64,000 nucleotides of DNA from Candidatus Nezhaarchaeota archaeon (lineage in GTDB: Archaea; Thermoproteota; Methanomethylicia; Nezhaarchaeales; WYZ-LMO8). The position numbers were made by a program, and so were the translations under genes. Under the pieces are notes generated by a model. The model had not been told where the DNA came from. It was given only the letters and a program-made list of their open reading frames with translations, and made no database searches. This document shows positions 10,903 to 40,998 of this stretch, one piece after another. The first letter of the stretch is position 1. The number at the start of each line of letters is the position of its first letter. The stretch spans positions 474,097 through 538,096 of the forward strand of contig JANXDO010000001.1 in the NCBI GenBank assembly GCA_025059375.1, in the 5' to 3' direction.

Positions 10903-11122
10903 GTTGTAGTTTCTTTTTGTTGCTTCGAGCTCCCCGATCCCGTTGAACGTGACTTGGAGGGCTGTTGTAGTTTCTTTTTGTTGCTTCCGGGCCCCAGAGC
11001 GGGGCCGGGGGGGTGCGCGGTTGTAGTTTCTTTTTGTTGCTTCAATATAATATAGAATATAGAATAATGCACAATTTCTAAATGAAAAATGTTAATATGT
11101 TGTAGTTTCTTTTTGTTGCTTC
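10903..11122 (-). CRISPR. CRISPR array, 4 repeats and 3 spacers
   Basis: Four identical 24-base repeats lie at 10903-10926, 10964-10987, 11020-11043 and 11099-11122. On the plus strand each begins GTTGTAG and ends TTGTTGCTTC; on the minus strand it begins GAAGCAAC and ends CTACAAC. The spacers are 37, 32 and 55 bases, an unusually wide spread. The one nearest the leader is very A/T-rich, the middle one almost pure G/C. The cas operon and a TATA-bearing leader lie on the 11.1 kb side, so transcription is on the minus strand and 11099-11122 is the leader-proximal repeat. No degenerate further repeat is seen. Confidence 0.97.
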
Positions 11123-11239: not shown

Positions 11240-12238
11240 TCACTTCACTGTGTATGTGAATGGCCTGAAGGGCGTGCCTCTCTCTATGCTCTGCCTTAGT
11301 TCCCAAGCTTTTGCGTATATTTCCCCCTTCACGCTGTGTTTCCAGCTTCTGTGCCTCCTCTTTAATGCCTTGTACAGGAGCCTCGTGACGGTCTCTAGTG
11401 ATTCCTTGGTTAGGTGTTCGTTCTTGTCCACGGATAGCTTTGTCGTCCTGGAGGCGATTATCACGGCGTGTATGGCTACGGGCTTGAACATCTCAGAGAA
11501 GTCGTACGTCAGGGACGTTTTTCCTGCTCTCTCGGAGTGCACTATCCCCACGTAGGGGTCTAGTCCGGAGGCTATCAATGCGTGTGTGCACAGCCCGTAC
11601 ACTATTGCGTAGGTGTAGCTCGTGGCTGAGTTTATTGGGTCCCTACTCTTAGGGTCCCTGCCTGTGAACTCGTACTCGCTTGGCACGAAGGTTGCAAGGA
11701 GCTCCCAGAGCTTTTTGCTCCACTTCCCCTCATGGTTGCGCAGCTCGTCCACATTCTTAATGCCTTTCCCCTCGATCTCTCTAAGCATCTCACATCTCTT
11801 CAACTCTTCTAGGATCCACTTAGTGTCCATCCCTCTCTCCGCCTCCTTGTAGGCTAGGTAGCGGATTAGGTTGATGAACCCTTGGAGCTTACTGTCGATG
11901 AAGGCTCTGCCCACGTTAATCCTCCACTCGACGTTGTCAGCTGCCCTGTAGAGCTTCCTCCTCGCTTCAGCAACTCTAACGCTGAACGGGTTTAAGAGGA
12001 AGCAGTCGCTTCGCCTGCCGTGAATCAGCACGGGCACATCAGCCTCCGATAGCATTAGGAGAGCACCAGACGACAATCGCACCCTCGACCCAACTACAAC
12101 GAGGAGCTCAACGTCTAGTAGAGGCACTGACTGCGTCTCCCAAGTAATGCCTCCCCCTTCGTCCTTCTTTGGCGTAGATATGGCTATCGTGGACCCCCTC
12201 TTGCTCACCTTGGCAGCGCCCTTAACCACTACGATCAT
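11240..12238 (-). CDS. cas1: Cas1 spacer integrase
   Basis: 332 residues from ATG 12238, chosen because the upstream frame overlaps cas4 and the protein then begins M-I-V-V-V-K-G. Catalytic residues of the Cas1 family are visible: Glu in N-H-E-G-K-W, His in G-I-V-H-S-E, and Asp/Glu in Y-D-F-S-E-M-F-K-P. The C-terminal D-P-I-N-S-A-T-S-Y stretch also fits. With Cas2 it inserts new spacers at the leader end of the array. It is the last gene of the cas operon, 117 bases from the first repeat. The length is normal and nothing appears broken, so adaptation should be possible. Confidence 0.96.
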   Translation of the reverse strand: MIVVVKGAAKVSKRGSTIAISTPKKDEGGGITWETQSVPLLDVELLVVVGSRVRLSSGALLMLSEADVPVLIHGRRSDCFLLNPFSVRVAEARRKLYRAADNVEWRINVGRAFIDSKLQGFINLIRYLAYKEAERGMDTKWILEELKRCEMLREIEGKGIKNVDELRNHEGKWSKKLWELLATFVPSEYEFTGRDPKSRDPINSATSYTYAIVYGLCTHALIASGLDPYVGIVHSERAGKTSLTYDFSEMFKPVAIHAVIIASRTTKLSVDKNEHLTKESLETVTRLLYKALKRRHRSWKHSVKGEIYAKAWELRQSIERGTPFRPFTYTVK

Positions 12239-12242
12239 AGCA

Positions 12243-12881
12243 TCACGCGGCGAACTCGCATTTCCTGGCATAGACGCAGTGTGAGCAAGGCGGTTTTCCA
12301 GCGGGCCTGGGAGCCTTGTTTAGGCTGGTTAGTGTTGCAACCTCCTCCATGAGCTTGACGAGCTTACGGCTCACGCCGCCCTTGAAGGTAAAGAGCAGTG
12401 CTGGGTAACTTGAGGATGGGGATAGCGAGACGTAGAATCCAGCTGAGGGAACGCCATAGTGTAGGTGTGTAGACATCATGTAGACCAGGATTCTAGGGAT
12501 CACGTGCTTCTCCTTGAGGACGATTGTGGTATCAGTGTCAGCAACCTCAAGAACTAATACTCGCAGCAGCTTGCCGTGAAGCGAGGTAATGATTACTGCG
12601 TCCGGTCTGCATATGAAGACTACATCCAGTCCTCTACCCTTGAAAGTTAAGCAGTACTCCTTGCCCGCCCCATCATACTCCTTTACTACTCTATTGAGTG
12701 AGCTCTCAGCTGCTAACTCTCTTAGTGTAGGTATGAGGAGCTCTTCAACGAAGATCCTACCACGCTCCCTGCTATCCTCCATATCCAGTATCCTCCTTGG
12801 CTTGTAGACCTCAGGGCGCGCTGCATAGTAAGCTCTAGATCTACACACCATGTAGTCGTCAAGTATCCGTGCCGATAACAA
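12243..12881 (-). CDS. cas4: Cas4-like adaptation protein with altered nuclease motif
   Basis: About 212 residues from TTG 12881, which overlaps cas2 and keeps the conserved L-S-A-R-I-L-D-D-Y-M-V-C. ATG 12851 would remove part of that motif. Cluster cysteines are present: one near the N-terminus (V-C-R-S-R) and three at the end (C-S-H-C-V-Y-A-R-K-C), as in [4Fe-4S] Cas4. The RecB-type site reads R-P-D-A-V, then L-E-V-A-D. The lysine of the usual E-x-K is alanine, and the usual Q of the Q-x3-Y motif appears to be Arg in P-R-I-L-V-Y. It may select prespacers without normal exonuclease activity. Confidence 0.85.
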   Translation of the reverse strand: MLSARILDDYMVCRSRAYYAARPEVYKPRRILDMEDSRERGRIFVEELLIPTLRELAAESSLNRVVKEYDGAGKEYCLTFKGRGLDVVFICRPDAVIITSLHGKLLRVLVLEVADTDTTIVLKEKHVIPRILVYMMSTHLHYGVPSAGFYVSLSPSSSYPALLFTFKGGVSRKLVKLMEEVATLTSLNKAPRPAGKPPCSHCVYARKCEFAA

Positions 12882-13155
12882 GCACGTCTGCCGCCCTCGA
12901 CCTATACCAAATCTTGCCTCTGGTAGCAGCAAGACACCTGTAGAAGTCAGAATCTTGAACAGGGATTGCGACGATAGAATCCCCCTCGCCAACCACTCTG
13001 CTAAGCTCCTCGCATAGGATCGTAGCTCTAGACCACGTAAGCCTTCCAGCGTATACTGACTTGGATATAGGGCATAGACCGTAGCGCCAAAGTACGCGCC
13101 TAACTCTCTCGCGTACATCGTCTCTCTGGACGTCGTAGGCGACGACAACATACAT
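12859..13155 (-). CDS. cas2: Cas2 adaptation protein
   Basis: 98 residues. The N-terminus M-Y-V-V-V-A-Y-D-V with the conserved aspartate at residue 8, and the ferredoxin-like pattern ending D-V-L-V-I-G-T, match Cas2. It forms the structural core of the Cas1-Cas2 integrase. It sits between cas3 (10-base gap upstream) and cas4 (23-base overlap), in the order cas2-cas4-cas1. Length is typical. Confidence 0.95.
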   Translation of the reverse strand: MYVVVAYDVQRDDVRERVRRVLWRYGLCPISKSVYAGRLTWSRATILCEELSRVVGEGDSIVAIPVQDSDFYRCLAATRGKIWYRSRAADVLVIGTDT

Positions 13156-13165
13156 CGCCCGTCCC

Positions 13166-15604
13166 TTAAAGGAGGTATAAGCCGCCTAAGAGCTCTCCTC
13201 GCTCGCCTTGACCATAAACTACGTAGACTGGAATCATGGACTCGAGTGCACTTAAGTGCTCGATTAAGTCCCCCCTCTCCTTAGAACTGTTGCACATCGC
13301 GAGGGTGGGGACATCTCCTAGATGCCCGCTGTCCATAAGCCTAGTGATCCTGCACACCTCCCTCTTCCCCTGAAACACCTTTACTCCCCCTTCAAGCAGG
13401 TCTACGATCAATCTAAACTGCACCAACTTGCCGTCCAACACCTCGAATAGAGATCTTACTTGGGAGGCATCACCCTCCACTCCCATCCACAGCGCCGTGT
13501 ACTCGTAAGGTCCTCTCAACTCGTGTATCCAGAAGCTTCCACCCTCGTACTTAAGCGGCAGATTCCTACCTGCCGTGGTCAGCTCGACCTCTTCCTCCAA
13601 GTCCCTCCCACGCCATGACCTCTTGATCGGCACGCTGGCGATGCCCCTGTACGAGTAATAGTTATAGACCCCCACTGGAGCTAGGTAGATCCCAGACCTC
13701 ATAAAACTTCTAAGTCTCCTCTCTATCTCGCTCACCTCTAGGAAATCGCCGAGCTCCCTTAGGAAGGCCATGAATTGGTTTATGAACTTCACCTCCTCTA
13801 CGCTCTTAGCAGTGTGCAGTTGCTCACGAACCTCGGACCTCTCCCTTATCATGCTCGCTAGCGTGTACGTCCATGTTGGGAGGACCGCTTTGAGGACCCC
13901 GACTGGCTTTTTGAGGAATATGTCTGGGGCTGTTCCAGGGTACATCTCTTTGAGGAGGTCGTTGAACTCGCCATTAGGTATCTCCTTCCCACCTATCCTC
14001 TCCAGGCGCTCCCTCATCCTGTTGTACTCGTAGCGTGGAATGAGGAGGTATACCTCTGCATCGCCCCCACCCCTCCCCCTTCCATACCTCCCTATCTTCT
14101 GCAGTGCCGTTAAGTAGTCCTTGGCGACGACCACCCCCAAGTCCATGTCCTTTATGTCTACCCCGAAGGCTATGGACATGTTCCCGACGATTAGCTTAGC
14201 CTTCCTTATCCCCATTGATGGATGGTCTTCAGAGAAGAGCGTCTTTATGGAGGTTACTAAGAGGGGCCTCTCACCTGCTAGTTTCTCGAGTGCCTCTGCA
14301 GCCTCTAGCACTGAGGCTATGCGATCAAGGAGTATCATTGCCTTGCCCTTCTGCCTATACTTCTCCAACCAGTCTTTGTCTAAGACTTCCTTGACGTGCC
14401 TCTGAAGCGCTCCAAATGCCGGTGCACCAGAGACGGCTCTTCCCTCGCTCAACGTGACGACAACGATGTTCACGCGCATCCTCTTGCGTATCTGTTCAAA
14501 CCCCTCTCTCGGATCATCAGACGTCTCTGAGCTTACCTCTACAACGTTGTAGCCGGCCTTAAGAGCTAGCCTTCTTATCAAGTCCAGTAGCTCCTTCCTC
14601 TTACCTCGAACAAGCACAGCCTTCTCCGGCGTTGCTGATGAAACCACAATCTTTCCTATGCCTTTTTCGCAGGTGTAGATGTAGAACAGCGACATGAAGG
14701 AGGCTAAGGAGAGTCCACTGTACAAGTGGAATTCATCGAAGAAGACCGGGACACGGAATAGGAGGAAGGTCTCGACCAAGTCCTTGAGGAAGCTCCTAGA
14801 GATGAAGTATTCCTCAAAGAGTCTCTTCCTATCAATGCCCACCTCAAGCTCTCTAAACCACTCCAAGACCTTACCCCTGCTTACAGCCCTCAAGAACCTA
14901 CGGAGCTCCTCCATAACTGAGGATAGCCAGACGCCGGCTCTGTGGCGGTCCTGATACGCACCTGTTGAGAGCAAGTAGGGGTACTCGGGGACGGTAAAGA
15001 TCACCCTGAAGGCCCTACTAGCTACTCTATCCCACAAGAAGCTGAGAAATGCCCTATTGCTCTCTTCAGCTTCCCTCACGCGACCCTTCAAGAGCTCGCG
15101 AAGATCGCTTAAGGAGCTCGAAGTCACGTACATGAGCGCCACAGGAACCCTTACTTGCAGCCCCTCTTCGCTGCCCCCAAGCTCTACTTCGAAGACCCTC
15201 AGATACTCGTCTAAAACCACCTTGTCGTCCTCGCTGAGCCCCTTTAGCTCAGCCCATAGGCCCTCTGCATCGATTTTAGTTGCGCCCATCTCCACTAGCA
15301 AGTTAGAGATGGAGTCGAATTGGTCTTTAGCAAGCTCTCTAGAAGGGTAGATCCCAATGGAGCCGTGGTACAACCACTCCGACTCTGCATTGACGAAGAG
15401 GGGCATCAACAGAGAGAGCGTCTTGCCAGCTCCGGTGGGGGCTCTAAGGAGGACGACATCGAGAGAGCGTCGATCCAGAAATACTTTAAAGAGCTCGCGT
15501 TGAAAGTCTCGAAGCCTCAGGGGCTTTGCTCCCAACTTTACCTCTTTGTCGCTCATCTTAACGTGCACTGGCGAAACGGAGAAGGAGGTCGCAATCTCTA
15601 TCAT
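13166..15604 (-). CDS. cas3: Cas3' helicase of type I-D (no HD domain)
   Basis: 812 residues from ATG 15604, which follows the csc1 stop by one base; a longer frame inside csc1 is less likely. Superfamily 2 motifs are present: Walker A A-P-T-G-A-G-K-T (residues 55-62), F-F-D-E-F-H (DExH), S-S-A-T-P, and R-Y-G-R-G-R-G-G in the second RecA domain. No HD nuclease motif is present; in this locus it is fused to Cas10d, the type I-D arrangement. The protein unwinds target DNA after Cascade binding. It is fourth in the operon, between csc1 and cas2. Confidence 0.93.
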   Translation of the reverse strand: MIEIATSFSVSPVHVKMSDKEVKLGAKPLRLRDFQRELFKVFLDRRSLDVVLLRAPTGAGKTLSLLMPLFVNAESEWLYHGSIGIYPSRELAKDQFDSISNLLVEMGATKIDAEGLWAELKGLSEDDKVVLDEYLRVFEVELGGSEEGLQVRVPVALMYVTSSSLSDLRELLKGRVREAEESNRAFLSFLWDRVASRAFRVIFTVPEYPYLLSTGAYQDRHRAGVWLSSVMEELRRFLRAVSRGKVLEWFRELEVGIDRKRLFEEYFISRSFLKDLVETFLLFRVPVFFDEFHLYSGLSLASFMSLFYIYTCEKGIGKIVVSSATPEKAVLVRGKRKELLDLIRRLALKAGYNVVEVSSETSDDPREGFEQIRKRMRVNIVVVTLSEGRAVSGAPAFGALQRHVKEVLDKDWLEKYRQKGKAMILLDRIASVLEAAEALEKLAGERPLLVTSIKTLFSEDHPSMGIRKAKLIVGNMSIAFGVDIKDMDLGVVVAKDYLTALQKIGRYGRGRGGGDAEVYLLIPRYEYNRMRERLERIGGKEIPNGEFNDLLKEMYPGTAPDIFLKKPVGVLKAVLPTWTYTLASMIRERSEVREQLHTAKSVEEVKFINQFMAFLRELGDFLEVSEIERRLRSFMRSGIYLAPVGVYNYYSYRGIASVPIKRSWRGRDLEEEVELTTAGRNLPLKYEGGSFWIHELRGPYEYTALWMGVEGDASQVRSLFEVLDGKLVQFRLIVDLLEGGVKVFQGKREVCRITRLMDSGHLGDVPTLAMCNSSKERGDLIEHLSALESMIPVYVVYGQGERGELLGGLYLL

Positions 15605-15605
15605 C

Positions 15606-16421
15606 CTAGGCAAACCGTCCCCCGAGCAGTTTTGGTGGTAATGGCACCCTGTGCTCTTCATCACCGCTAACCAGGAAGAGATTCTTAGACCTAATGTACC
15701 CTATTATGGAGGCCAACACCTTATCCTGCGGTTTAGAGCGAGTCTCCATAACCTTGAGCACTTCCACTGGTGCATAACCGAAGAGCCCGACATCGTAGAT
15801 ATTGACTGGCATGGTCGACCATGAGGTCTCCTTCTTGACGTCCAGAACCTCGGCCTCACTTAGGCGGACCTTAAAGAGGCCCATCCTCTTCATCCCTATC
15901 CTCATGTACATCACCTTCGGCAGCTTAACGTCAATTGTTACTACGAGGGTCTTAAACGATGATGGTGGGACCAGAGCTACGTAGTGCTCCAGCCTAGGGT
16001 AGTTGGTCTTCAATGCTCCTCGAAACTCAGCATACCCGGAGCCCTTGGCTTGCATGAAGAACTTCTTGGGCACGACTCTTCGAGGAGAGGCGGGGAAGGC
16101 GTACATGCACTCCCTTCCTTCAAGCAAGTTCTTCAACTGCTCCTCGACGAAGCCATAGTGAAGTGGCTCCCTAGCCAGCTTAGGGCTAAACGACCCCCCT
16201 CCCAGCTCTTGGTAGGACAAAAAGTGGAGAGAAGGTATTACGGTGTACGCTTCAACGCACCTTCCAGCCAGCCCATAGATCAGCGGATAGTTGTGTATGA
16301 ATGAGCTGGTGGATATCAGTGCTCCGCCTTCCTCAGCTAGAGAGGGTCTCTGCTCTGTTGCGAAGAGTAGGACTCCCTGTAGCTCCATGTCAGCTAAGTA
16401 GACCCTCAGCACATTAGCCAC
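15606..16421 (-). CDS. csc1: Csc1 (Cas5-type subunit of type I-D Cascade)
   Basis: 271 residues from GTG 16421. The N-terminal RAMP strand V-L-R-V-Y-L-A-D-M-E-L-Q-G and the early F-A-T-E-Q motif are characteristic of Csc1, the Cas5 equivalent that caps the crRNA 5' handle in type I-D complexes. It begins 4 bases after the csc2 stop and ends next to the cas3 start, so it is tightly coupled in the operon. It is somewhat longer than many Csc1 proteins but has no obvious extra domain. Confidence 0.88.
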   Translation of the reverse strand: MANVLRVYLADMELQGVLLFATEQRPSLAEEGGALISTSSFIHNYPLIYGLAGRCVEAYTVIPSLHFLSYQELGGGSFSPKLAREPLHYGFVEEQLKNLLEGRECMYAFPASPRRVVPKKFFMQAKGSGYAEFRGALKTNYPRLEHYVALVPPSSFKTLVVTIDVKLPKVMYMRIGMKRMGLFKVRLSEAEVLDVKKETSWSTMPVNIYDVGLFGYAPVEVLKVMETRSKPQDKVLASIIGYIRSKNLFLVSGDEEHRVPLPPKLLGGRFA

Positions 16422-16425
16422 CGGA

Positions 16426-17511
16426 CTATCCCTTGCTGACGAATTGGTCTAGGCTTCTTTTGTATATCAACACGTCCTTCCATGCCTGTAGGATTATTTC
16501 GTCGCTCTCCTCCTCCCTGAGCCCTCTGAGCTTGTCTCCAAGCTTCTCGTCGAGGATCAATATGCCCTGGCCTTCAAATTCACGGACGTACTTCATGACC
16601 TCGTTCATCACGTCCTTTGGTGTTGGCACTTTCTCCTCGCTCGCTATCTTGTTCACTATGTCGTAGCCACCGCTCACCTCGTACTTTCCAAAGAGTATTG
16701 CGGGGATGTGTATCCTTATCTCTCCAAAGTGAGTTTGCCTACCGCCGACTCTCGTTGTCCTGCTTATGGTCATTAGCGTCAGCAGCAGCTCAGCTAAGGT
16801 CATGTCCCTTAACGCCATCTTGCCCACGAAGGGCACTCCAGCCTCAATCATCCTAAACTGGTACAGCGCACCGGTCCTCTCTGGTCCAGGGCCTACTTCG
16901 GGCCTATAGGTGGTTTTGGCTATGTCGTCTATCGCATTGAAGGTCACGGTCACGAGGGCCTTATGCTCTGCAACTGGGGAGACGTAGAGGTCGCCTTCCA
17001 CCCTAGACTTGACGTTGTAGCCAGCACCCTCTTGGACTGCGTAGCCGAATATTAGGCAGTTCGGGCATTTGCCACAATAGCCTTCAAACCCTTCGGGTAT
17101 CTTTCTCTCCTCCGGCGCCCGCCTCATGTAGGGCCTCATTACGCACGTGTAGTCCTTTATTTCTGCTAGCCCCCCTAGCTCCTTCTCAGCTCTATCCTTG
17201 TTCCTGTTGAACCACTCGTGCAGCAGGGACAACATCTGCCTTCTAATGGCCCCGGACTGGACCTTCGTGTTGAGTATCGCTGGGACGTTGAAGCCTAGGT
17301 AGCTGGGCACGGTCGTCACGTCCAGCGTCTCCTGTTCATGCCTTATTATCAACCTCGAAAGGGGCTCTATGACCACGTATACGTTGGCGACCTTCCCCTT
17401 AGGTATGGCGTTGTACTTGTCTGGCTTGTCCCTCTTCACTGTCCAATCAGCTATGGCTCGGTATTTTTCTTCAAACAACTTCTTCCCGATCTCCTCAAGT
17501 CTCACGGGCAT
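16426..17511 (-). CDS. csc2: Csc2 (Cas7-type backbone subunit of type I-D Cascade)
   Basis: About 361 residues from ATG 17511, with a GGGGGTGATG stretch just upstream; starts at 17520 or 17601 are possible. The Csc2 signature C-G-K-C-P-N-C-L-I-F-G-Y-A-V (zinc-binding insertion) lies in the middle. The N-terminal I-I-R-H-E-Q-E and the later S-R-T-T-R-V-G-G-R-Q-T fit the Cas7 RRM core and crRNA contact regions. Copies of this subunit line the crRNA and define target binding. It lies 82 bases downstream of cas10d and 4 bases upstream of csc1. Confidence 0.93.
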   Translation of the reverse strand: MPVRLEEIGKKLFEEKYRAIADWTVKRDKPDKYNAIPKGKVANVYVVIEPLSRLIIRHEQETLDVTTVPSYLGFNVPAILNTKVQSGAIRRQMLSLLHEWFNRNKDRAEKELGGLAEIKDYTCVMRPYMRRAPEERKIPEGFEGYCGKCPNCLIFGYAVQEGAGYNVKSRVEGDLYVSPVAEHKALVTVTFNAIDDIAKTTYRPEVGPGPERTGALYQFRMIEAGVPFVGKMALRDMTLAELLLTLMTISRTTRVGGRQTHFGEIRIHIPAILFGKYEVSGGYDIVNKIASEEKVPTPKDVMNEVMKYVREFEGQGILILDEKLGDKLRGLREEESDEIILQAWKDVLIYKRSLDQFVSKG

Positions 17512-17593
17512 GGTTACCATCACCCCCTTACCTCCCGCACTATCTAAGTGCGGGTAGGCGGAGCGAGCAAGGTAAAGAAGGGGGGTTGTCGCA

Positions 17594-20560
17594 TTAGCCA
17601 CCCCCCTTAGCTCTCACGTACCTATACTTTTCGAAGGCGCTGTCCAGCATTACTTCGATTAGCCTTCGTAGGGTGCTTGCGGGCATTGACCTCTTGAGGT
17701 CCAGCACTACATCTGCTATGTTGGAGAATATGCTGAACAGCACACTCCTGTAAGTGACCTCCACGACCTTTCCACTCTCATCCTTTATTGTCTTCTTATT
17801 CTCCAAGCCATTGCCCACGGATCTAGCTACGAGCTCCAAGAACTTGTCAGCGGCGATGTCCTTTGCGCTCTCTTCACCAATGGATCGGGAGTACTGTAGA
17901 AGTATCTCGATGCCTTCTCTTAGTGGCCTCTGGACATGGTACTTGCTCAGATCTGATGCTGGTGTTAGCTCATTCAAGTTCACCGCATAACTGTAGAGCA
18001 ACTTATTCAGGGACTTCTCCTTACCGCCCACTACACTAGATGCCTGACTCATGTTGCCTTCCACCTCCAGTGACTTTGATGAAATCAATCCATAATGCCT
18101 AAGAAGGCCTTCTCCACCCTCCCTGGGGTCTAGGCTCGGGGGTGGAGGGGAGCTCAACGAGAGCGGGACGTAGGGTATTGACGTCATGTACTCGTGCATG
18201 GACAGAGCGTAATCCTTAATGTCTTCACGCCTAGTGTACCAGCCAAACACCTTTAGCCCGTATATGTAGAGGGCCGTGAGGAGCGTTATGTAGGACTTAC
18301 TGTAGCTAGAGTACTCGCTCGGCGTCATCTCCCGCCCACACCTTGCTGCATGCGTCCTGATCCTTTCAAACGCCCCCACTATGGATGAGACAATGTAGGA
18401 GAGGTGAGGCAAGACGATCGGAGCAGCCTCAGAACCTAGACTGTGCGCACGTGTTAGGTTGCTCACAAGACCCACCTGCCCGCCTCCGGATAGAGACATG
18501 GCGAAGGGGGCCAACGCCAGGGCAATAGCAACTTCCTTTTTCTTTAGAGAGAAGTCTGAACCTAAGGGCAGAATCACCCTAGCCCCCAAGCTGTCGAAGA
18601 GGACCGTGACGCGCCGCCCCTTCCTCTTTGCTACCTCGTGCAAGTCACTGCGCTCAGTAATCTTCCTGAGGACCTCCTCATCGACTTTCAACCCCTTCAC
18701 TAGCACCTCCCTGTATATCTCGGCTACATCCTGGTACCTCCTCTCCAGCAGCTCGTAGATGTCGGATAAGCACGAGAGCCTCCCCTTTACATAGCCCCAC
18801 AGATCGTACGACACCACAGGATGTAGGGTGACGACGAGGAAAGGCGGCCTGTACTCTTGCCCTACTTGGTGGCTTTCGTAGTAGCATAGCGGGCAGATGT
18901 AGCGTATGCAGCTATCCCTGTCGGTGGCTAGCTTCTCGAGGCTCGCTAGTGGAGGGTCGTCGTGGAGCCATACTTCTGAGACGCTCCCCACTCCTCTTAC
19001 AGCTTGACCGTACTGTATGAACCTAATGGAGGCCTTCAATATGGGCTCGCCGCACACTCTACAGTAGTTTCTAAGCTCTGAGGGCGATCTGGACAGGACG
19101 TCAAACGATCTCGAGGATTCGAGATCCATCACGTTGCTCTTTAGCCTCGTCTCCACGAACTTCATGACGTAGTGGTCTATATCCTCCGAGACGCCAAGCT
19201 CCTCGTAGATAGTGCTAACCATCCTTTTAATGCCCTCAATGTCGTTCCGACGCTTAAATGCCTCGGCTATGGCCACTATGCGCATCAGCTCCCTATCGAC
19301 GGTCTTTGGGATCGCAACGCCTAAGGCCTTCGTTATGACGTTCGCTGTGACGTCCTCGTCCCTTGATGGGAACGCTAACATGTAGGCCAGCAAGAGGAAC
19401 CTATCTTCCTCCTCCCGAGACGCAACGTACTCGGCTAACATCTCCTTGGACGTTATGATCGTGCCGAGCTTGTCGACGAAGTAGGTGGAGCCCTTCCCTA
19501 TCCCGGTAGCTAGAGTCCTTGGGTCTAATAGCGCTTCTTCCCCCCTCTTCAAGCTCCTGATTTCCCTATCGAGATCGGCGATGGAGGCAGAGCCCTTCAA
19601 GTACTTGACTATTAGGTTGTGGTAGATGTACTTGCCGACCCTGACCTTCTCACTCCTCTTGTCCATCTCCTCTTCTATGGGGGCTTTAAGCAGCTCCTTG
19701 CCCCTTGTTTGCAAGAGCAGCCGGTAGATATCTGATATCGCCTTCTTCTTCAACCCCCTTAGGAGCTCTTCGAGCCTCTCTTCTAACTTGAAGACGCTCG
19801 AGACCTCGACCCTCGCGGCCTTAACTATGTCACGTAGGGCAACGGTCTTTGAGGTGCTCCTCCCCAACAGGACGACCCCATCGGCATAGATGACAAGCGG
19901 TCTCCACCCATTGCCTTGAAGAGCATCGATTACGCTCTCGGAGATCTTGGCGTGAAGTATTGATGGAAGCGCTGTCTTTACAAACCCAAACCTAAGCCCA
20001 AACCCCTCGACTAGCCTCATGACCTTCCTAGACGACTGGATGTAATCTATGGCCTCGTCTATCGAGCCAAAGCTCATCAATTCATCGGCGATGCTAATGA
20101 CGTTGGCCACGTACTTCACAAGCTCCTCCTCAAGCTCAGGCTCGCTTCCTCCCTCCACAGCACTCGCGATCTGCATCAGCTTGCTAAGCATCTCCTCCTT
20201 GAGCTCCTCGCTTAATGGGATGAAGAGCTCCTCTAGCAGCTTGTCCATGACCCTCTTTATGTTCTCCTCCCCCCTCCTCCCCTCAATGCCATGGAGCTTG
20301 ACGTAGTCGTGCGCTATGGATGCTAATAGGAGCAGCTCTTCATAGTTTAAGCCAAACCTCCTTTCAAGCGACTCTATCGCCAATTTGTCCAATGAGGGGG
20401 CATTCTTCTTTATAACCGAGCCTAAGTAGTGAGCTATGAGGGCCACTGAGACAGAGTGGTGGAAGAATGTTTGCCAGGAGTAGACCTTTGCCTTTAAGAA
20501 CAAGTCCTCCGAACCAAGAGCTTCATAGATCTTCTCTATGTACCTTTCAGCCTCACCCAT
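17594..20560 (-). CDS. cas10d: Cas10d (Csc3) with N-terminal HD nuclease domain
   Basis: 988 residues. An N-terminal HD domain has H-H-S-V-S-V-A (His34/His35) and S-I-A-H-D-Y (His84-Asp85), supplying the Cas3'' nuclease of type I-D. A zinc-finger-like pair, C-R-V-C-G-E-P and C-P-L-C-Y-Y, lies in the centre (about residues 500-560). The large remainder corresponds to the divergent Cas10 palm and C-terminal helical region. No G-G-D-D cyclase motif is seen, consistent with Cas10d. It is the large subunit of the I-D effector and the target-degrading nuclease. It heads the cas operon and is divergent from csa3. Confidence 0.93.
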   Translation of the reverse strand: MGEAERYIEKIYEALGSEDLFLKAKVYSWQTFFHHSVSVALIAHYLGSVIKKNAPSLDKLAIESLERRFGLNYEELLLLASIAHDYVKLHGIEGRRGEENIKRVMDKLLEELFIPLSEELKEEMLSKLMQIASAVEGGSEPELEEELVKYVANVISIADELMSFGSIDEAIDYIQSSRKVMRLVEGFGLRFGFVKTALPSILHAKISESVIDALQGNGWRPLVIYADGVVLLGRSTSKTVALRDIVKAARVEVSSVFKLEERLEELLRGLKKKAISDIYRLLLQTRGKELLKAPIEEEMDKRSEKVRVGKYIYHNLIVKYLKGSASIADLDREIRSLKRGEEALLDPRTLATGIGKGSTYFVDKLGTIITSKEMLAEYVASREEEDRFLLLAYMLAFPSRDEDVTANVITKALGVAIPKTVDRELMRIVAIAEAFKRRNDIEGIKRMVSTIYEELGVSEDIDHYVMKFVETRLKSNVMDLESSRSFDVLSRSPSELRNYCRVCGEPILKASIRFIQYGQAVRGVGSVSEVWLHDDPPLASLEKLATDRDSCIRYICPLCYYESHQVGQEYRPPFLVVTLHPVVSYDLWGYVKGRLSCLSDIYELLERRYQDVAEIYREVLVKGLKVDEEVLRKITERSDLHEVAKRKGRRVTVLFDSLGARVILPLGSDFSLKKKEVAIALALAPFAMSLSGGGQVGLVSNLTRAHSLGSEAAPIVLPHLSYIVSSIVGAFERIRTHAARCGREMTPSEYSSYSKSYITLLTALYIYGLKVFGWYTRREDIKDYALSMHEYMTSIPYVPLSLSSPPPPSLDPREGGEGLLRHYGLISSKSLEVEGNMSQASSVVGGKEKSLNKLLYSYAVNLNELTPASDLSKYHVQRPLREGIEILLQYSRSIGEESAKDIAADKFLELVARSVGNGLENKKTIKDESGKVVEVTYRSVLFSIFSNIADVVLDLKRSMPASTLRRLIEVMLDSAFEKYRYVRAKGGG

Positions 20561-20584: not shown

Positions 20585-20600
20585 GCGTCTTTATAAGCTT
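20585..20600. promoter_or_regulatory. Candidate shared promoter between cas10d operon and csa3-cas6
   Basis: The cas10d start (20560) and the proposed csa3 ATG (20642) are 81 bases apart. CTTTATAAG at 20589-20597 contains the self-complementary TTATAA and is a TATA box on both strands. It is about 29 bases before the cas10d ATG, giving a leaderless transcript, and about 45 before the csa3 ATG. A second A/T-rich block (ATATATAC, 20573-20580) lies nearer cas10d. Binding of Csa3 here would control both arms; this is inference. Confidence 0.5.
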
Positions 20601-20641
20601 TGTTAGACTCTGAAAGTTACAAGATAGAGGGGCATTGTAAA

Positions 20642-21313
20642 ATGACCAGAAATCTAAAACTGTTCACATTTGGATGGAGCCCCGAATTCGTTCTAAGGCA
20701 CTTGATTGAGGAGGGCGTTTCTCATGGGGACATAGTCCTGCTCATTAGCAATAAACCCGAAGGGGACTACGCGAAAAAGAGGGTGGAAGAGGCTTACAGG
20801 CAAGTGGAGAGCTTCCTCAGAATGGTTGGGATCGTCCCGCTAGAGTATCGAGAAGTAGAGCTAGAGAAGGGGGTCTTGGAAGTCTGCAGGGACCTCGTGA
20901 GGATTGTAAAGGGGTTCGAGCCCTTGGACTCCATCAAGTTCTACTTGGTGGGGGGGATGAGGGTTCTAGTGGTTGCTGCATTGATCGTGGCCAAGCTGCT
21001 TTGCTCAGCAGGTAGGCGAGTTGAGGTGAAGCTATCTCAAGAGGACAGGCCAATCTCTTACAATCTACCGCTAGAGCTCCTACTGCTAGACGTTGAAGAC
21101 GTCACGAGCGCTCAGCTAGAGCTTCTAAGCTACTTGAGAGCTCACGGCAAGGCGGGATCCAAGAGCCTAGCGATAGGGAGGAGCGAGGTAACCGTTAGGA
21201 AGCACTTGGTCAAGCTCAGGGAGATGGGGCTAGTCGAGTACAGCGTGAGTGGCAGGAGGCAGGTCTATAGGCTTTCGCCCCTAGGAGAGATCTTGTTAGA
21301 GGTGGTCAAGTGA
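20642..21313 (+). CDS. csa3: Csa3-type CARF-HTH regulator of the CRISPR locus
   Basis: 223 residues from ATG 20642; an upstream TTG at 20600 is too close to the TATA box. The N-terminal half is a CARF/Rossmann-like domain (K-L-F-T-F-G-W-S, then F-Y-L-V-G-G-M-R-V-L), the ligand-binding part. The C-terminal 70 residues are a winged helix (L-A-I-G-R-S-E-V-T-V-R-K-H-L). In Sulfolobales, Csa3 proteins activate adaptation genes or CRISPR transcription in response to nucleotide signals. It is followed by cas6 after 3 bases. Confidence 0.88.
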   Translation: MTRNLKLFTFGWSPEFVLRHLIEEGVSHGDIVLLISNKPEGDYAKKRVEEAYRQVESFLRMVGIVPLEYREVELEKGVLEVCRDLVRIVKGFEPLDSIKFYLVGGMRVLVVAALIVAKLLCSAGRRVEVKLSQEDRPISYNLPLELLLLDVEDVTSAQLELLSYLRAHGKAGSKSLAIGRSEVTVRKHLVKLREMGLVEYSVSGRRQVYRLSPLGEILLEVVK

Positions 21314-21316
21314 GGC

Positions 21317-22300
21317 ATGTACTTGGAGGGACCAGTCCGGATTAAGGTCACGATATCTTTTAAGAGGGACTTCTTCGTAAAGGACTACACGGCCAAGCTC
21401 GTCAAGTCCCTGCTCATGGCGAGTAACCCGAGGCTAGAGGAAGTCTTCTCCCCCAAGAGCTTCCCGCCCAAGCCCATCCACATAACCCCCCTATACGCAC
21501 TAGGCGCAGGAGGGGGCATCGAGGCGATCTACGCTAAGTCTATTGCCGACGTCATGGCTAGACCCCTTAGGCCTAGCCACGTAAGGCCAGTTAGGATTAG
21601 GTCGGATAGGGAGTACTTCTTCTACATTGGCTGCTCCCTGGGGTTATTGGAGGGCATCCTCTCGGGCCTCATGAGTCCAGTGAGGTTCTCCTTCGGCAGC
21701 GAGGTCCTCGACGTTAAGGAGTTGGGGTACGACGTGCTGCACGTGGACGTCGAGAGGGAGAGCAGGGAGATAGCAGAAGCCCTAGGACGTGATGGGAGGA
21801 AGGAGGTGAAGGTGACCTTCACCTCGCCGACGCTGCTTAAAGACCCCTTAGCGGTGATGAGGTGGAGGAAGAAGAAGTTAATGCTGCCGATACCAGAGGC
21901 AGTCCTGGCCACCCCCATCTTCATGGTGCTGCACGACAAGGGGAAGCTGAGGAAGAGCATATTCCACAGGCTCATGATCTACGTGAAGTCCACATTCGAC
22001 ATACCGTACACAGCGCTGAAGACCACGAACTTGGTCTGGTACGTCTACGACAACAAGGCCCTCCCAGCCCTGATAGGCTACGTGAAGTACTTCATAGACG
22101 ATCAAGCACTGCATCGTGCTCAATTCGTCTCAGAATCGAGATATGGGTTAGACTTCGTGGAGAGCCTCTCAGAGGCTATAGTCCTGGCGAGGACTTATGG
22201 AGTGGGCGACTCGAGGTCGGCTGGGTTTGGGCACGTCACCATCGACCTTTCCCTCTCCAGCGGTCAGCCGATGGCGGGGAAGCACCCTGCCGTGCCCTGA
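21317..22300 (+). CDS. cas6: Cas6 crRNA-processing endoribonuclease
   Basis: 327 residues from an ATG 3 bases after the csa3 stop. It has two RAMP-like halves. The C-terminal glycine-rich loop of Cas6 is seen as Y-G-V-G-D-S-R-S-A-G-F-G-H-V-T (about residues 290-305). Histidines that could be catalytic occur in the N-terminal half and at F-H-R-L, but I cannot assign the active residue. It should cut the precursor within the 24-base repeat to leave the 5' handle. It is separate from the main cas operon and paired with the regulator, so crRNA maturation may follow Csa3 control. Confidence 0.85.
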   Translation: MYLEGPVRIKVTISFKRDFFVKDYTAKLVKSLLMASNPRLEEVFSPKSFPPKPIHITPLYALGAGGGIEAIYAKSIADVMARPLRPSHVRPVRIRSDREYFFYIGCSLGLLEGILSGLMSPVRFSFGSEVLDVKELGYDVLHVDVERESREIAEALGRDGRKEVKVTFTSPTLLKDPLAVMRWRKKKLMLPIPEAVLATPIFMVLHDKGKLRKSIFHRLMIYVKSTFDIPYTALKTTNLVWYVYDNKALPALIGYVKYFIDDQALHRAQFVSESRYGLDFVESLSEAIVLARTYGVGDSRSAGFGHVTIDLSLSSGQPMAGKHPAVP

Positions 22301-22637: not shown

Positions 22638-23053
22638 ATGAAGACGGGAGAACTGAAAGTAGTTCATAGGGGGTATGAAGAGGTCAAGAGCTCCTTACAC
22701 AAGAAGATCCTAGTCATCTCCTTCCTAGCCTTGGCTATCGGGGCAGTAGCTTGGGCCGTCATAAGCGGCATCCCCTACTACTATGAGCGGCCACGCGAAA
22801 GACCCGCGAACCACTCCAACTACGAAAGAAGCTGGAGCGAACAATCGACCCATGCCATCAGCTCCTCCAGCATCTTGCCGCCATCTTTCCAGACCCTGTT
22901 CTACCAGCTTTGAGCACGCCATCAGCTCCTCCAGCAGCCCCCACCTTCGAGGAAGTATTCCTGGATTTCGCTGAAGTTAATGGCATTTCTAAGGAGGCCG
23001 CTAAGAACTTTTTGAACAATTTTAGAGATTACGTAGACTACTATTTTAATTAA
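22638..23053 (+). pseudogene. Broken gene for a single-pass membrane protein
   Basis: Three reading-frame pieces lie in succession. Piece 1 (ATG 22638, to about 22800) encodes a basic N-terminus and one transmembrane helix (K-K-I-L-V-I-S-F-L-A-L-A-I-G, then G-I-P-Y-Y-Y-E). Piece 2, in the next frame (about 22795-22870), is a Thr/Pro/Ala linker (T-T-P-T-T-K-E-A, P-S-A-P-P-A). Piece 3 (about 22930-23053) ends in an acidic helical domain (F-E-E-V-F-L-D-F, then N-F-R-D-Y-V-D-Y-Y-F-N, stop). Pieces 2 and 3 rejoin in one frame if the 64-base unit at 22854-22917 is removed. Pieces 1 and 2 need one further frameshift. Original function unknown. Confidence 0.5.
22854..22936. repeat. 19-base direct repeat flanking a 43-base chromosomal gene fragment
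   Basis: GCCATCAGCTCCTCCAGCA occurs at 22854-22872 and again at 22918-22936; allowing one mismatch, the duplication is 22 bases. Between the copies, bases 22872-22914 match 40230-40272 at 42 of 43 positions. The only difference is C at 22894 against T at 40252. The source lies inside the acyl-CoA synthetase alpha gene (its L-K-A-G-R-T segment). The insert plus one repeat is 64 bases and shifts the host reading frame by one. The match was read directly; the mechanism is open. Confidence 0.85.
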
Positions 23054-23344: not shown

Positions 23345-24037
23345 TCAAATTTTTAGAACTGAAATTATGAGAGCCGATTCATACACTGTTGAAAAATACA
23401 ATGAGGTGATAATGGATCTTGTGAGTTGTTGCTGAACTCTTTGGAGTTGGAGTTCTCTGGGCTTAAGCTCGATGAAGCTGTCAGCCTTCTTCAAGAAGAA
23501 GGATAACAAATCTACTTTAGCTTTCGACCTCTCATGTAGGATGTACCCCTTATCCCCTAGGTACACCTGGTCCACTCGATTGCTCACGACGTCATTGCAC
23601 GTTATCTTAGAGATCTTGAACCTCCTCCTCTCGCCTAGGCTAAGGTCCATGCCGAGGCCCTCGAAGCCCATGCCGGTCAATGCCATTACAATGACGTGCT
23701 CGTAGTCTATGGCGTCTCCCAGCAGCACTATGCTGAATGATATCCTATTGCCCTTAACGTCTCCAATCTTGATTGTGAATGGTCTCGTAACCCCCTCGCG
23801 CCCACCCTTCCTAGCTATCTTTGCGTCGGGCTTAATTATGGATGATGGTTCAAAGATGATGGCGTAGATGCACTTCCTGTAGTGTCCACATTGCTTGCAC
23901 TCATCACTTACACTTGCTCTACACACCAGCTTCTTGAGGGCGTAGCCGAATGCTCCTCTAATGGCGAAGCCTGGATAGCCTGTGAATGGCAGGTAGTTCT
24001 TCTCGAATACCCCCTCAACCTCATAGACTCTGAGCAC
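23345..24037 (-). pseudogene. Truncated second Cas6-like RAMP protein
   Basis: 230 residues that look like the N-terminal half or two-thirds of the Cas6 family linked to PF10040. G-F-A-I-R-G-A-F-G-Y-A-L is followed by a four-cysteine knuckle (residues 39-56: C-R-A, C-K-Q-C-G-H-Y-R-K-C). Then come R-P-F-T-I-K and the glycine-rich G-M-G-F-E-G-L-G near residue 125. Full family members continue with a second RAMP domain. Here the chain ends in a low-similarity tail (S-L-Y-F-S-T-V-Y-E-S) and stops. It is either a relic or a shortened active form. It differs from the Cas6 at 21317 and may be left over from a second CRISPR system. Confidence 0.6.
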
Positions 24038-26649: not shown

Positions 26650-27530
26650 TGGAGATCGAATGATGGCGGGGAGAGCTTAAAGGGTGGCTTAAAGACTCCG
26701 CTCTCCATTACAACCTCGTCTATGAAGGTTGAAGGGGTCAAGTCGAAGTAGAGGTTGAAGACTTCAACTCCCTCAATCACTTCATTTATAATTTCTCTAG
26801 GCTCCTTAACTTCAAGGTGCACGCTCTCAGGGGTTAATTCAGGGTCAACTTTAAATGACTCAGATAAGACCACGTTCATAACCCCCAAGCTCTTAACGGC
26901 TATCGCTATTTGGGCTGTCCCAGACTTGTTGATTACGCGTCCATCTCTTAGTATCGTGTCAGCCCCGAAGACGAAGACGTCAACGTTAAACATCTTTGAG
27001 GACTGGTAAGCTGAGGCGTCGATCACCAGCTTCACCTTGTGGCCCATGGATGCTAGCTCCCTAGCAGTCGCTACACCTTCACATAGAGGTCTAGACTCCG
27101 TAACAACTATTGTCTTGCTATAATTTAGGTGCTTAAAGAACTCGAGTACTGTTGAGCTTAGACTGTGGGTTAGGAAGCTCTTGGCCCATGAAAGCTCCTT
27201 AACAGCATTCTCGGCAACTCTATTCTTGCTTTCAATCACGTAATCCCTCAACTTTAAAAGCGCGTCCATCACATCTCCTGCACGATATCTCTTAGCATGA
27301 GCGCTCTCCAGTAACCTAAAGCATATTGAGGCCACATTCTTTATCGAGGACATGCTCGGCCTACAGCTTATGAGCCTCCTATATGCATCCTCTAGAGCTA
27401 TATGAAAGTTGCTTGAGGACCATGAATCCTCTACAAGGGCATTAAAGACGTCAATCGATCGAAGCGTCAACCAGAATGCACCATGACTCCTATCATCATT
27501 AATCTCATTAATTATTTGAAGGTACCTCAA
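26646..27530 (-). CDS. eIF2B/ribose-1,5-bisphosphate isomerase-like protein
   Basis: 294 residues. The C-terminal Rossmann-like half has the family motifs [20 protein letters not shown] and N-K-S-G-T-A-Q-I-A shared by eIF2B alpha-type proteins, methylthioribose-1-phosphate isomerase and archaeal ribose-1,5-bisphosphate isomerase. The helical N-terminal half is normal. R15P isomerase in archaea feeds AMP-derived sugar into RuBisCO. No RuBisCO or AMP phosphorylase gene is in the window, so the isomerase role is not supported over the regulatory eIF2B-like role. Confidence 0.75.
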
Positions 27531-39567: not shown

Positions 39568-40998
39568 TCATCTTGAGGCTGACTTATTAGTGGCGTATCT
39601 TGACAGTTTTTTCTTCTCTATCTCAGCTTGAGAGGCTAGTGTGATGATAGCTTTAGCAGCTCTTTCAGGCGTGTAATAGTTTGGTACGAGATTTTTGCTG
39701 AAAAGCCTTAAGACCTCCTCAAACTCTATTGCCTTGAAGCCAAACGGCATAGCCCATGCAACGATTATAGGTTTCTGATAGCGCTCAATCGCATCAACTA
39801 TTAGCTCTGCCACTTCAATTTGATATAAAACGAGAGGTGGTGTCACCATGATTACATCTATGTTAGGGTCGGAGCACACTGCCTCTAAAACCCTCTCGCT
39901 TAAACTCACATCTTCAAAGGCTGAGGCAGTCAAATCCACTGGGTTTGAAGCCGAGGCGAAGGGAGGGAGAATCTTTCTAAGCTTATCTATGTTGTCGTTG
40001 GTTAGTTTGGGGACCAATAATCCGAGCTCTTCACAAGCATCTGCTGCTACAACTGCGAAACCGCCAGAAACCGATATTATGCCAACTCTATTGCCTTTTG
40101 GTCTTAGTGGGCAAGCCAGGGCCATTGACAGGTCATAGAGCTCCTCAAATGTTTTAGCTTGAATTATTCCAGCTTGCTTACAGGCAGCATTCCAGACATC
40201 TATGGAGCCAGCTAAAGCAGCTGTGTGAGATCTTGCCGCCATCTTTCCAGATCCTGTTCTACCAGCTTTGAGAGCTACTAGAGGCTTAATAGTTGAGCTA
40301 CAGAGCTCCAAGAACCTCCTACCATCCCTAACAGCCTCAATATACATAGCTACCACGCTAGTCTCCGGGTCCTCAATAAAGTACTCGAGACAATCGTTCA
40401 AGGTCGTTACGGCCTCATTACCAGTACTGATTGCCTTGCTCACATGAAAGCCCCTCGCGACAGATAAGGCTAAGAAGCTTTCAAGAAGCCCTCCACTATG
40501 AGATATGAAAGCTATTTTACCTGGTTCTTTGGGTACCGGTATACCGATTGCAGTGTTTAAGCCTATTGAGGGGTTCACTACACCGAGACAGTTTGGCCCA
40601 ACAATGATCATCCCTGTCTCCTCAGCTATTCTGCGCATCTCAACTTCCATTCTCCTCCCTTCATCACCCCTAGACTCAGAGAAGCCGCCTGCAAATATCA
40701 CTGCTACCTTCACACCCTTTGCTCCACACTCCTTCAGAACATTGATGGTTGAGTATGCACTCACTGATATTAAGGCGAAATCCACTTCATCAGGGATGTC
40801 TGATATTCTAGCGTAACACTTCACTCCAAGTAGCTCCCTACCAGCAAGCCTAGGATTAACTGGGTAAACGTTGCCTTCATAGCCACCCCCCACGAGATTC
40901 ATTACGAATAGGTATCCGGGGCTTATCGGGTTATCCGATGCACCTACTATTGCCACACTGTTTGGATAGAAGAGCGGCTTTAGCTTCTCCATCTTCAT
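39568..40998 (-). CDS. ADP-forming acyl-CoA synthetase, alpha (CoA-binding) subunit
   Basis: 476 residues. Order of domains: CoA-binding Rossmann domain (A-I-V-G-A-S-D-N-P, residues 13-21), succinyl-CoA-ligase-like domains with G-P-N-C-L-G-V-V-N, and the phosphohistidine motif A-A-R-S-H-T-A-A-L-A-G-S (about 257-268). This is the alpha half of archaeal ACD; the beta half is the divergent gene at 41083. It converts acyl-CoA plus ADP and phosphate to acid plus ATP, or the reverse. A close paralogue lies at 52020, and a 43-base piece of this gene is found at 22872. Confidence 0.9.
   Translation of the reverse strand: MKMEKLKPLFYPNSVAIVGASDNPISPGYLFVMNLVGGGYEGNVYPVNPRLAGRELLGVKCYARISDIPDEVDFALISVSAYSTINVLKECGAKGVKVAVIFAGGFSESRGDEGRRMEVEMRRIAEETGMIIVGPNCLGVVNPSIGLNTAIGIPVPKEPGKIAFISHSGGLLESFLALSVARGFHVSKAISTGNEAVTTLNDCLEYFIEDPETSVVAMYIEAVRDGRRFLELCSSTIKPLVALKAGRTGSGKMAARSHTAALAGSIDVWNAACKQAGIIQAKTFEELYDLSMALACPLRPKGNRVGIISVSGGFAVVAADACEELGLLVPKLTNDNIDKLRKILPPFASASNPVDLTASAFEDVSLSERVLEAVCSDPNIDVIMVTPPLVLYQIEVAELIVDAIERYQKPIIVAWAMPFGFKAIEFEEVLRLFSKNLVPNYYTPERAAKAIITLASQAEIEKKKLSRYATNKSASR

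Follow-up and report, generated by a model that had tools for sequence, protein, structure and literature searches.

Can a Cas4 protein that lacks the lysine of its nuclease active site still serve CRISPR (clustered regularly interspaced short palindromic repeats) adaptation? The question is raised by a gene in a 64,000-nucleotide stretch of DNA, here called the window, from a Candidatus Nezhaarchaeota archaeon (assembly GCA_025059375.1, contig JANXDO010000001.1, positions 474,097 to 538,096). The gene, cas4, occupies window positions 12243 to 12881 on the minus strand and encodes P0001, a protein of 212 residues. It belongs to a lineage of adaptation modules in which Cas4 has lost a residue at which mutation, in other Cas4-family proteins, left almost no cutting; in the window's branch a second residue of this kind is missing. 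On balance, a lysine-less Cas4 probably cuts DNA very weakly or not at all and is kept so as to hold the end that bears the protospacer-adjacent motif (PAM) for Cas1-Cas2.

The active site of P0001

Alignment and codon reading place an alanine, Ala114 (codon GCT, 12540 to 12542, minus strand as for all codons here), where Cas4 proteins carry the lysine of the E-x-K motif. The lysine codons AAA and AAG differ from GCT at all three bases, so a single base error does not explain the change. By alignment, the glutamine of the following Q-x3-Y motif is also replaced, by Arg130 (12492 to 12494). Other residues align with those of Cas4: Asp94, the motif II acid (12600 to 12602); Glu112, the motif III acid (12546 to 12548); Cys13, the first iron-sulfur (Fe-S) ligand (12843 to 12845); and the C-terminal Fe-S motif C199-x2-C202-x5-C208 (12258 to 12287), the codons of which were read. 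(The coordinates of Asp94, Arg130 and Cys13 were counted from the reading frame.) P0001 also carries H126 and Y134. The four cysteines, predicted Fe-S ligands, are invariant in 12 of 12 proteins of alignment A1, which joins P0001 to 11 relatives described below. An initial annotation of this DNA had reported the four cysteines and the RecB-domain aspartate as present, the catalytic lysine as alanine, and the glutamine of the next motif as arginine. Each of these readings is borne out, and the window gene has neither the catalytic lysine nor the glutamine of Cas4.

The reading frame runs on the minus strand from 12881 to 12243 and starts with TTG. The plus strand of the interval gives no frame, stops being numerous. 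The interval had thus been annotated correctly, with the minus strand as the coding one.

How secure is the name Cas4? P0001 matches the PADLOC Cas4 profile at E 5.2e-5; at E 1e-3, neither Pfam nor NCBIfam gives a match. PF01930 reaches E 0.027, below its cut-off, and misses P0001 in the genome search. (A match to HxlR, at E 0.0014, outscores PF01930 and is also below cut-off; it was regarded as chance.) The A1 profile is homologous to 11 ordinary Cas4s (hhalign, profile against profile: 97.1%, E 5.6e-11) and to the solved Cas4 SSO0001 (4IC1; E 3.6e-4). The comparison with the 11 Cas4s sets the EVA of P0001 on EIK, and that with SSO0001 keeps the same register; at E up to 1, the narrower profile A2 hit none of the solved structures. 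Judged by these comparisons, P0001 taken alone is a very divergent Cas4. With the Cas4 family (PF01930/COG1468; solved members SSO0001, 4IC1, and Pcal_0546, 4R5Q) it shares the Fe-S cysteine pattern, the motif II Asp, the motif III Glu, and the Tyr after the Q position. The differences are the E-x-K lysine, which the lysine-less family does not have, and the glutamine, gone in the window's branch. PADLOC profile PDLC01402, named 'Cas4', matches 5 of the 12 A1 members (best E 6e-87), so part of the lysine-less family is already filed as Cas4; the list of six profiles for P0001 at E 0.01 does not include it, and its output does not cover the catalytic residues.

As a sole query, P0001 found no homolog in genome_contigs or viral_contigs, nor in the 8 other genomes of the order. 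Class-level matches (E 0.004 to 0.07, in 4 of 39 other genomes) were rejected, having stops inside their reading frames.

A lysine-less family and its origin

Is the altered site a defect of this one gene? A search of 398 genomes of the phylum detected Csc2, a type I-D protein, in 22. The stretches around Csc2 in the other 21 genomes were fetched, together with four further stretches, and open reading frames (ORFs) were selected for the C-terminal cysteine motif, without regard to the lysine. This gave 14 ORFs in 13 loci, of which 11 were kept by eye; those dropped were the ORF of L042 and the plus-strand ORF of L045, which are not Cas4-like, and an ordinary Cas4 on the L045 minus strand. The 11 ORFs and P0001 formed the A1 seed, which was lysine-less by choice, and the search with A1 was left open. 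In the 398 genomes it returned 13 matches at E 6e-36 or better (the window included), all in Csc2-bearing genomes and all without the lysine, after which nothing scores until E 6.6e-12, the level at which the ordinary Cas4s set in. A fourteenth member (L085/L090, genome G214) scores among the ordinary Cas4s, at E 4.0e-7; it has His at the lysine position and adjoins the Cas1 nearest to the window's Cas1 in the tree described below. G214 is absent from the Csc2 match list of the 398-genome search.

The 14 genomes span nine families (f1, f11, f17, f20, f27, f30, f31, f34, f47) and include Metallosphaera javensis AS-7 (L094) and Vulcanisaeta sp. JCM 14467 (L093); the lineage consists of archaea that are mostly heat-loving. 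A class search around G116 gave 3/81 matches, all known, and no new member within its limit of E 1e-15, outside which G214 falls. Among the 22 Csc2 genomes, 13 have a lysine-less Cas4 and G201 has an ordinary Cas4 in its locus. No Cas4 was seen in the fetched stretches, several of them short contigs, of the other eight (G009, G055, G209, G256, G287, G340, G387, G394), where the search relied on the cysteine pattern and on the A1 profile, with no ordinary Cas4 profile.

From the phylum, 33 ordinary Cas4s were read, and every one has the E-x-K lysine; of the 14 family members, none does. The 33, some of them near-copies of each other, are those with a fetched locus, not all places of the A1 search: 17 come from that search and 16 from 24 PF01930 places, after exclusion of one repeat of L045 and seven members of other families (two Csa1). 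At the lysine position the 14 members have Ala, Thr, Ser or His, with Glu in L044 and L047, where the strand is out of register. The remaining landmarks are well kept: the motif II Asp in 14/14; the motif III Glu in register in 12/14, shifted by one or two positions toward the C-terminus in L044 and L047; all three cysteines of the C-terminal motif in 14/14; and the N-terminal cysteine in 13/14, the exception, L085, being cut by a contig end. EFTITR is invariant in the five proteins of A2. In a joint alignment, the Gln of Q-x3-Y occurs in 33/33 ordinary Cas4s and 0/14 family members. By these counts the lysine-less Cas4 is a conserved subfamily of an archaeal adaptation module, and its altered site is no local defect. 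The initial annotation had raised two possibilities: that the same change is found throughout the lineage, as is now seen across nine families; and that a conserved lysine lies elsewhere in the site, where the best column reaches 6 of 14 and none is conserved.

A tree of Cas1 (24 rows, midpoint root; the Cas1 of G366, in two pieces, left out) puts the 13 Cas1 proteins from lysine-less loci into a single clade (98/95; recovered in 98% of 200 bootstrap trees). Since these partners group together, a single, ancient loss of the lysine is probable, in the ancestor of one adaptation module. In a Cas4 tree, with the trait columns left in, the 14 members fall into two starred clades (8 rows, 99/97; 6 rows, 97/93). 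Loss of the glutamine reads as later or partial, in the window's branch at least. The cas4 genes of L035 and L036 have a ratio of nonsynonymous to synonymous substitution (dN/dS) of 0.117 at dS 0.97 (NG86, one pair), which indicates purifying selection; the same script gives 0.443 for cas2 and 0.063 for cas7d, with cas1 saturated in dS.

Cutting, holding and PAM choice

What might such a protein do? Alanine mutants at the lysine of SSO1391 (K197A) and the glutamine of Pcal_0546 (Q149A) are almost inactive, the Pcal_0546 mutants showing detectable activity at higher protein load; Pcal_0546 K138A was insoluble (PMC4176176). Metal in the Cas4 family is bound by Asp, Glu, His and a main-chain carbonyl, and Cys mutants are active (PMC4176176). 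Elsewhere, K110 of Cas4 is named as an active-site residue, and Cas4 is thought to sequester 3' overhangs (PMC6519985). A survey suggests that all Cas4 proteins are active nucleases (PMC5704561), and the titles and abstract openings of the open-access papers on Cas4 that were retrieved report no naturally lysine-less CRISPR Cas4.

The initial annotation had predicted weak or no exonuclease activity with the structural role kept. Indirect argument supports both parts of that prediction: mutants elsewhere are almost inactive; the cysteines are still there, as are the partner genes; and purifying selection is seen in one pair of genes. A scheme can be proposed. Within a Cas1-Cas2-Cas4 module lineage, housed in type I-D (Csc2-bearing) genomes in 13/14 cases, the lysine would have been lost in the module ancestor and never regained. 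The protein would still fold as an Fe-S RecB domain and may bind metal through D94 and E112. Beside Cas1-Cas2, it would hold the PAM-side 3' overhang and delay its integration, so setting the orientation of the spacer. The PAM itself would be cut by Cas1; by a host exonuclease whose trimming stops at the protected PAM; or, in some genomes, by an ordinary Cas4 in trans. Three elements of this scheme are inferred: that cutting has been lost, that the protein holds the overhang, and which enzyme cuts in its stead. A broader proposal, offered tentatively, is an ancient split of two Cas4 jobs, in which a nuclease-dead Cas4 reads or shields the PAM end and orients the spacer, and Cas1 or a host nuclease cuts. 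If so, PAM choice in these archaea would be independent of Cas4 cleavage. PAM choice by Cas4 cutting and by holding is hard to separate; the lysine-less lineage offers a natural separation-of-function test.

Mapped spacers bear on PAM choice in one lysine-less genome, G305, which has arrays on both sides of its Csc2 gene. Three spacers of its L091 array match STIV1 (35/38), SSV13 (35/39), and pARN4 (34/36). Taken in the inferred direction of the CRISPR RNA (crRNA), all three protospacers have GTN (GTC, GTA, GTG) exactly at the 5' edge; the chance of three in three at 1/16 each is 2.4e-4. GTN is the interference PAM of the Synechocystis type I-D system (PMC10212523). No phage matches were found for the first L035 array or for the arrays of L036, L044, L049 (811-4496) and the window, nor plasmid matches for the L035 and L036 arrays; the protospacer searches excluded the arrays of L046, L047, L048, L050 and L051, the second L035 array, and the last ~574 bases of the L091 array. 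Two candidates were rejected: an L037 match in SMV1, which is to the repeat and not a spacer; and L038 matches to an Acinetobacter phage (82 bases, 76.8%), dropped because they are longer than a spacer. The SMV1 segment itself (27147-27254, L122) agrees by eye with 23/24 bases of the L037 repeat (Metallosphaera javensis type I-D), and is perhaps a viral mini-CRISPR or a stray repeat.

Several points weigh against a Cas4 that holds without cutting. In types V-A and V-B, PAM selectivity was mostly gone when Cas4 was catalytically inactive, and V-A spacers shift longer (PMC9419969), so a dead Cas4 would not be expected to keep GTN. The GTN count in G305 is three, in a genome that also carries two ordinary Cas4s, and natural arrays, being filtered by function, keep mainly working spacers. 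PF01930 misses P0001 itself, so an absence of Cas4 by that profile holds for less divergent Cas4s only. The Cas4 tree has one origin in 54% of 200 bootstrap trees and alone does not show one origin. Structure prediction (two runs, three sequences each) gave predicted local distance difference test scores of 39 and 36 and was not used. Finally, in a family-only alignment the glutamine column holds Gln in 4/14 (L048-L051), Glu in 2 and Arg in 8, the window included, and the column of window residue K125, near the site, is basic in 10/14 (Lys in 6). This leaves room for activity.

Might the protein, then, still be a nuclease? Some PD-(D/E)XK enzymes lack the usual lysine, another residue replacing it. 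Here the substitute could be, for example, a basic residue next to H126 or R130, in keeping with the column just described. Both acids are retained; AKPWQ is common to L048-L051; H126 is common to the three A3 proteins, and the histidine on the Q motif helps hold metal in Pcal_0546 (PMC4176176); and the G305 spacers end exactly at GTN. This explanation nonetheless appears rather unlikely, as no lysine column is conserved over the family and P0001 has neither of the two residues whose mutants, in other Cas4-family proteins, are almost inactive. A partner nuclease is another candidate: an ordinary Cas4 elsewhere in the genome would cut, much as type I-A of Sulfolobus islandicus requires both Cas4 and Csa1 (cited in PMC5704561). 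At least one ordinary Cas4 with the lysine is indeed present in the other 11 of the 13 Csc2-bearing lysine-less genomes, and in G214. The need for such a partner is improbable given the remaining two: no second Cas4 or Csa1 was found in the window genome (96% complete), and neither it nor G116 (99%) has a match to PF01930 at E 0.01 or to Csa1 at E 0.001, with the limit that PF01930 misses very divergent Cas4s. That the gene is simply decaying, on its way out, would fit its great divergence, the lost active-site residues, and the lone four-repeat array of the window genome. Decay is very improbable: in 14 genomes of nine families the frame stays open while sharing this change, dN/dS is low in the one pair, and other lysine-less genomes have long arrays of up to 143 repeats. 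A holding Cas4 with little or no cutting remains the preferred reading.

Three known proteins invite comparison with the lysine-less Cas4. The Synechocystis Cas4 is also a type I-D adaptation protein; the PAM of its system is GTN, and its cutting is required there (PMC10212523). That comparison is by literature only, and a search for the Synechocystis comparator through Csc2 in plasmids gave no match. Csa1 (PF06023, type I-A) is also an Fe-S RecB protein of the adaptation module. It differs in its C-x3-C spacing (four aligned) from the C-x2-C of the lysine-less Cas4, and 33 of the 35 Csa1 proteins read have the E-x-K lysine. The lysine-less family aligned to the Csa1 profile in its C-terminal part only (hhalign, 55.7%, E 1.1e-4), a weaker match than the one to Cas4 and insufficient to class it as Csa1. 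The two Lys-lacking Csa1-like proteins (L112, 1489-2277, and L118, 1435-2655; G214 and G068) each lie near an ordinary Cas4, and both genomes also hold a lysine-less Cas4. The nucleocapsid protein of TTV1 is likewise an inactivated Cas4-like nuclease kept for another purpose (cited in PMC5704561); it is a viral nucleocapsid component, whereas the lysine-less Cas4 is part of a CRISPR adaptation module.

The locus and its arrays

By gene content the window locus is of type I-D: Csc1, Csc2, Cas10d and a separate Cas3' are all present. The cas4 gene lies beside and between cas2 (12859 to 13155, minus strand, overlapping the cas4 start) and cas1 (11240 to 12271, minus), both recognized by profile matches. 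In line with them, on the minus strand, follow cas3' (the type I-D helicase; 13166 to 15664; PADLOC PDLC01106, E 4.8e-43, just under cut-off in another profile search); csc1/cas5d (15606 to 16421; PDLC01526, E 2.3e-36, under cut-off in another profile search); csc2/cas7d (16426 to 17601; profile matches); and cas10d (17594 to 20560; PDLC01398, E 7.7e-38). Two genes are divergent, on the plus strand: csa3, a CARF regulator (20600 to 21313; profile matches), and cas6 (21317 to 22300; PDLC01122, E 6.2e-36, Pfam Cas6 under cut-off).

In 13 of 13 loci with both genes in view, cas2 abuts or overlaps cas4, starts having been trimmed by hand. Glu, His and Asp, which we take to be the catalytic residues of Cas1, are present in 12 of 12 whole Cas1s read (window, L035, L036, L038, L039, L044, L047-L051, L090); the Cas1 of G366, in two pieces, and that of G205 were not included. 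A suspected loss of the Cas1 active-site Glu was ruled out by alignment to 4N06, which puts a Glu at the catalytic place. At L046/L093, in Vulcanisaeta sp. JCM 14467, the matches to csc2, cas1, cas3, cas6 and cas10d are split over two or three ORFs apiece, and the Cas4 frame is whole; this may reflect decay of the locus or frame errors in the draft.

Does loss of the lysine disturb spacer length? The window array, found by repeat search at 10903 to 11122, has four 24-nucleotide repeats with spacers of 37, 32 and 55 nucleotides in plus-strand order. The crRNA direction is presumably minus, because the repeat resembles repeats ending in ACTAAAAC or ACTAAAAG. With up to two mismatches allowed, the genome holds four copies of the 21-base repeat core, all at this array. 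Among lysine-less loci, the arrays of L035-L038, L046 and L091 hold 434 spacers with a standard deviation (SD) of 1.75; those of L047, one with another repeat excluded, have SDs of 1.12 and 0.94; those of L048-L051 hold 256 spacers with an SD of 4.34 together; and those of L044 have SDs of 5.42 and 4.71. Beside ordinary Cas4s, L045 holds 63 spacers with an SD of 1.04, and small arrays have SDs of 1.9 to 3.1, with 4.2 in one of three spacers (four repeats). The broadest arrays read thus sit in lysine-less loci, beyond every ordinary-Cas4 array except the four-repeat one. Irregular spacing as a rule after loss of the lysine is ruled out by lysine-less arrays as regular as ordinary ones, and the sister loci L044 and L047 differ in spread, so something else decides spacer length. 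By eye, array regularity showed no pattern with an ordinary Cas4 in trans. The link once drawn between the Cas4 change and irregular spacers is therefore not supported; the window array itself has three spacers. The L044 (6682-11952) and L048-L051 arrays combine broad lengths with a long right tail, up to 65 nucleotides, which L047 does not show.

A putative ectopic integration had also been suggested to relate to the Cas4 change. The candidate exists: at 22851-22936, a 22-nucleotide direct repeat (one mismatch) surrounds a 42-nucleotide insert, 41/42 identical to 40231-40272 inside ORF 39568-40998, as if Cas1-Cas2 had integrated a piece of the cell's own DNA off target. No GTN flanks the donor, removal of 64 bases yields no single long open frame, and nothing connects the candidate to Cas4. 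Near this candidate lies a second Cas6-like ORF (23345-24037, minus strand, 230 residues), which matches PADLOC Cas6 at E 4.3e-24.
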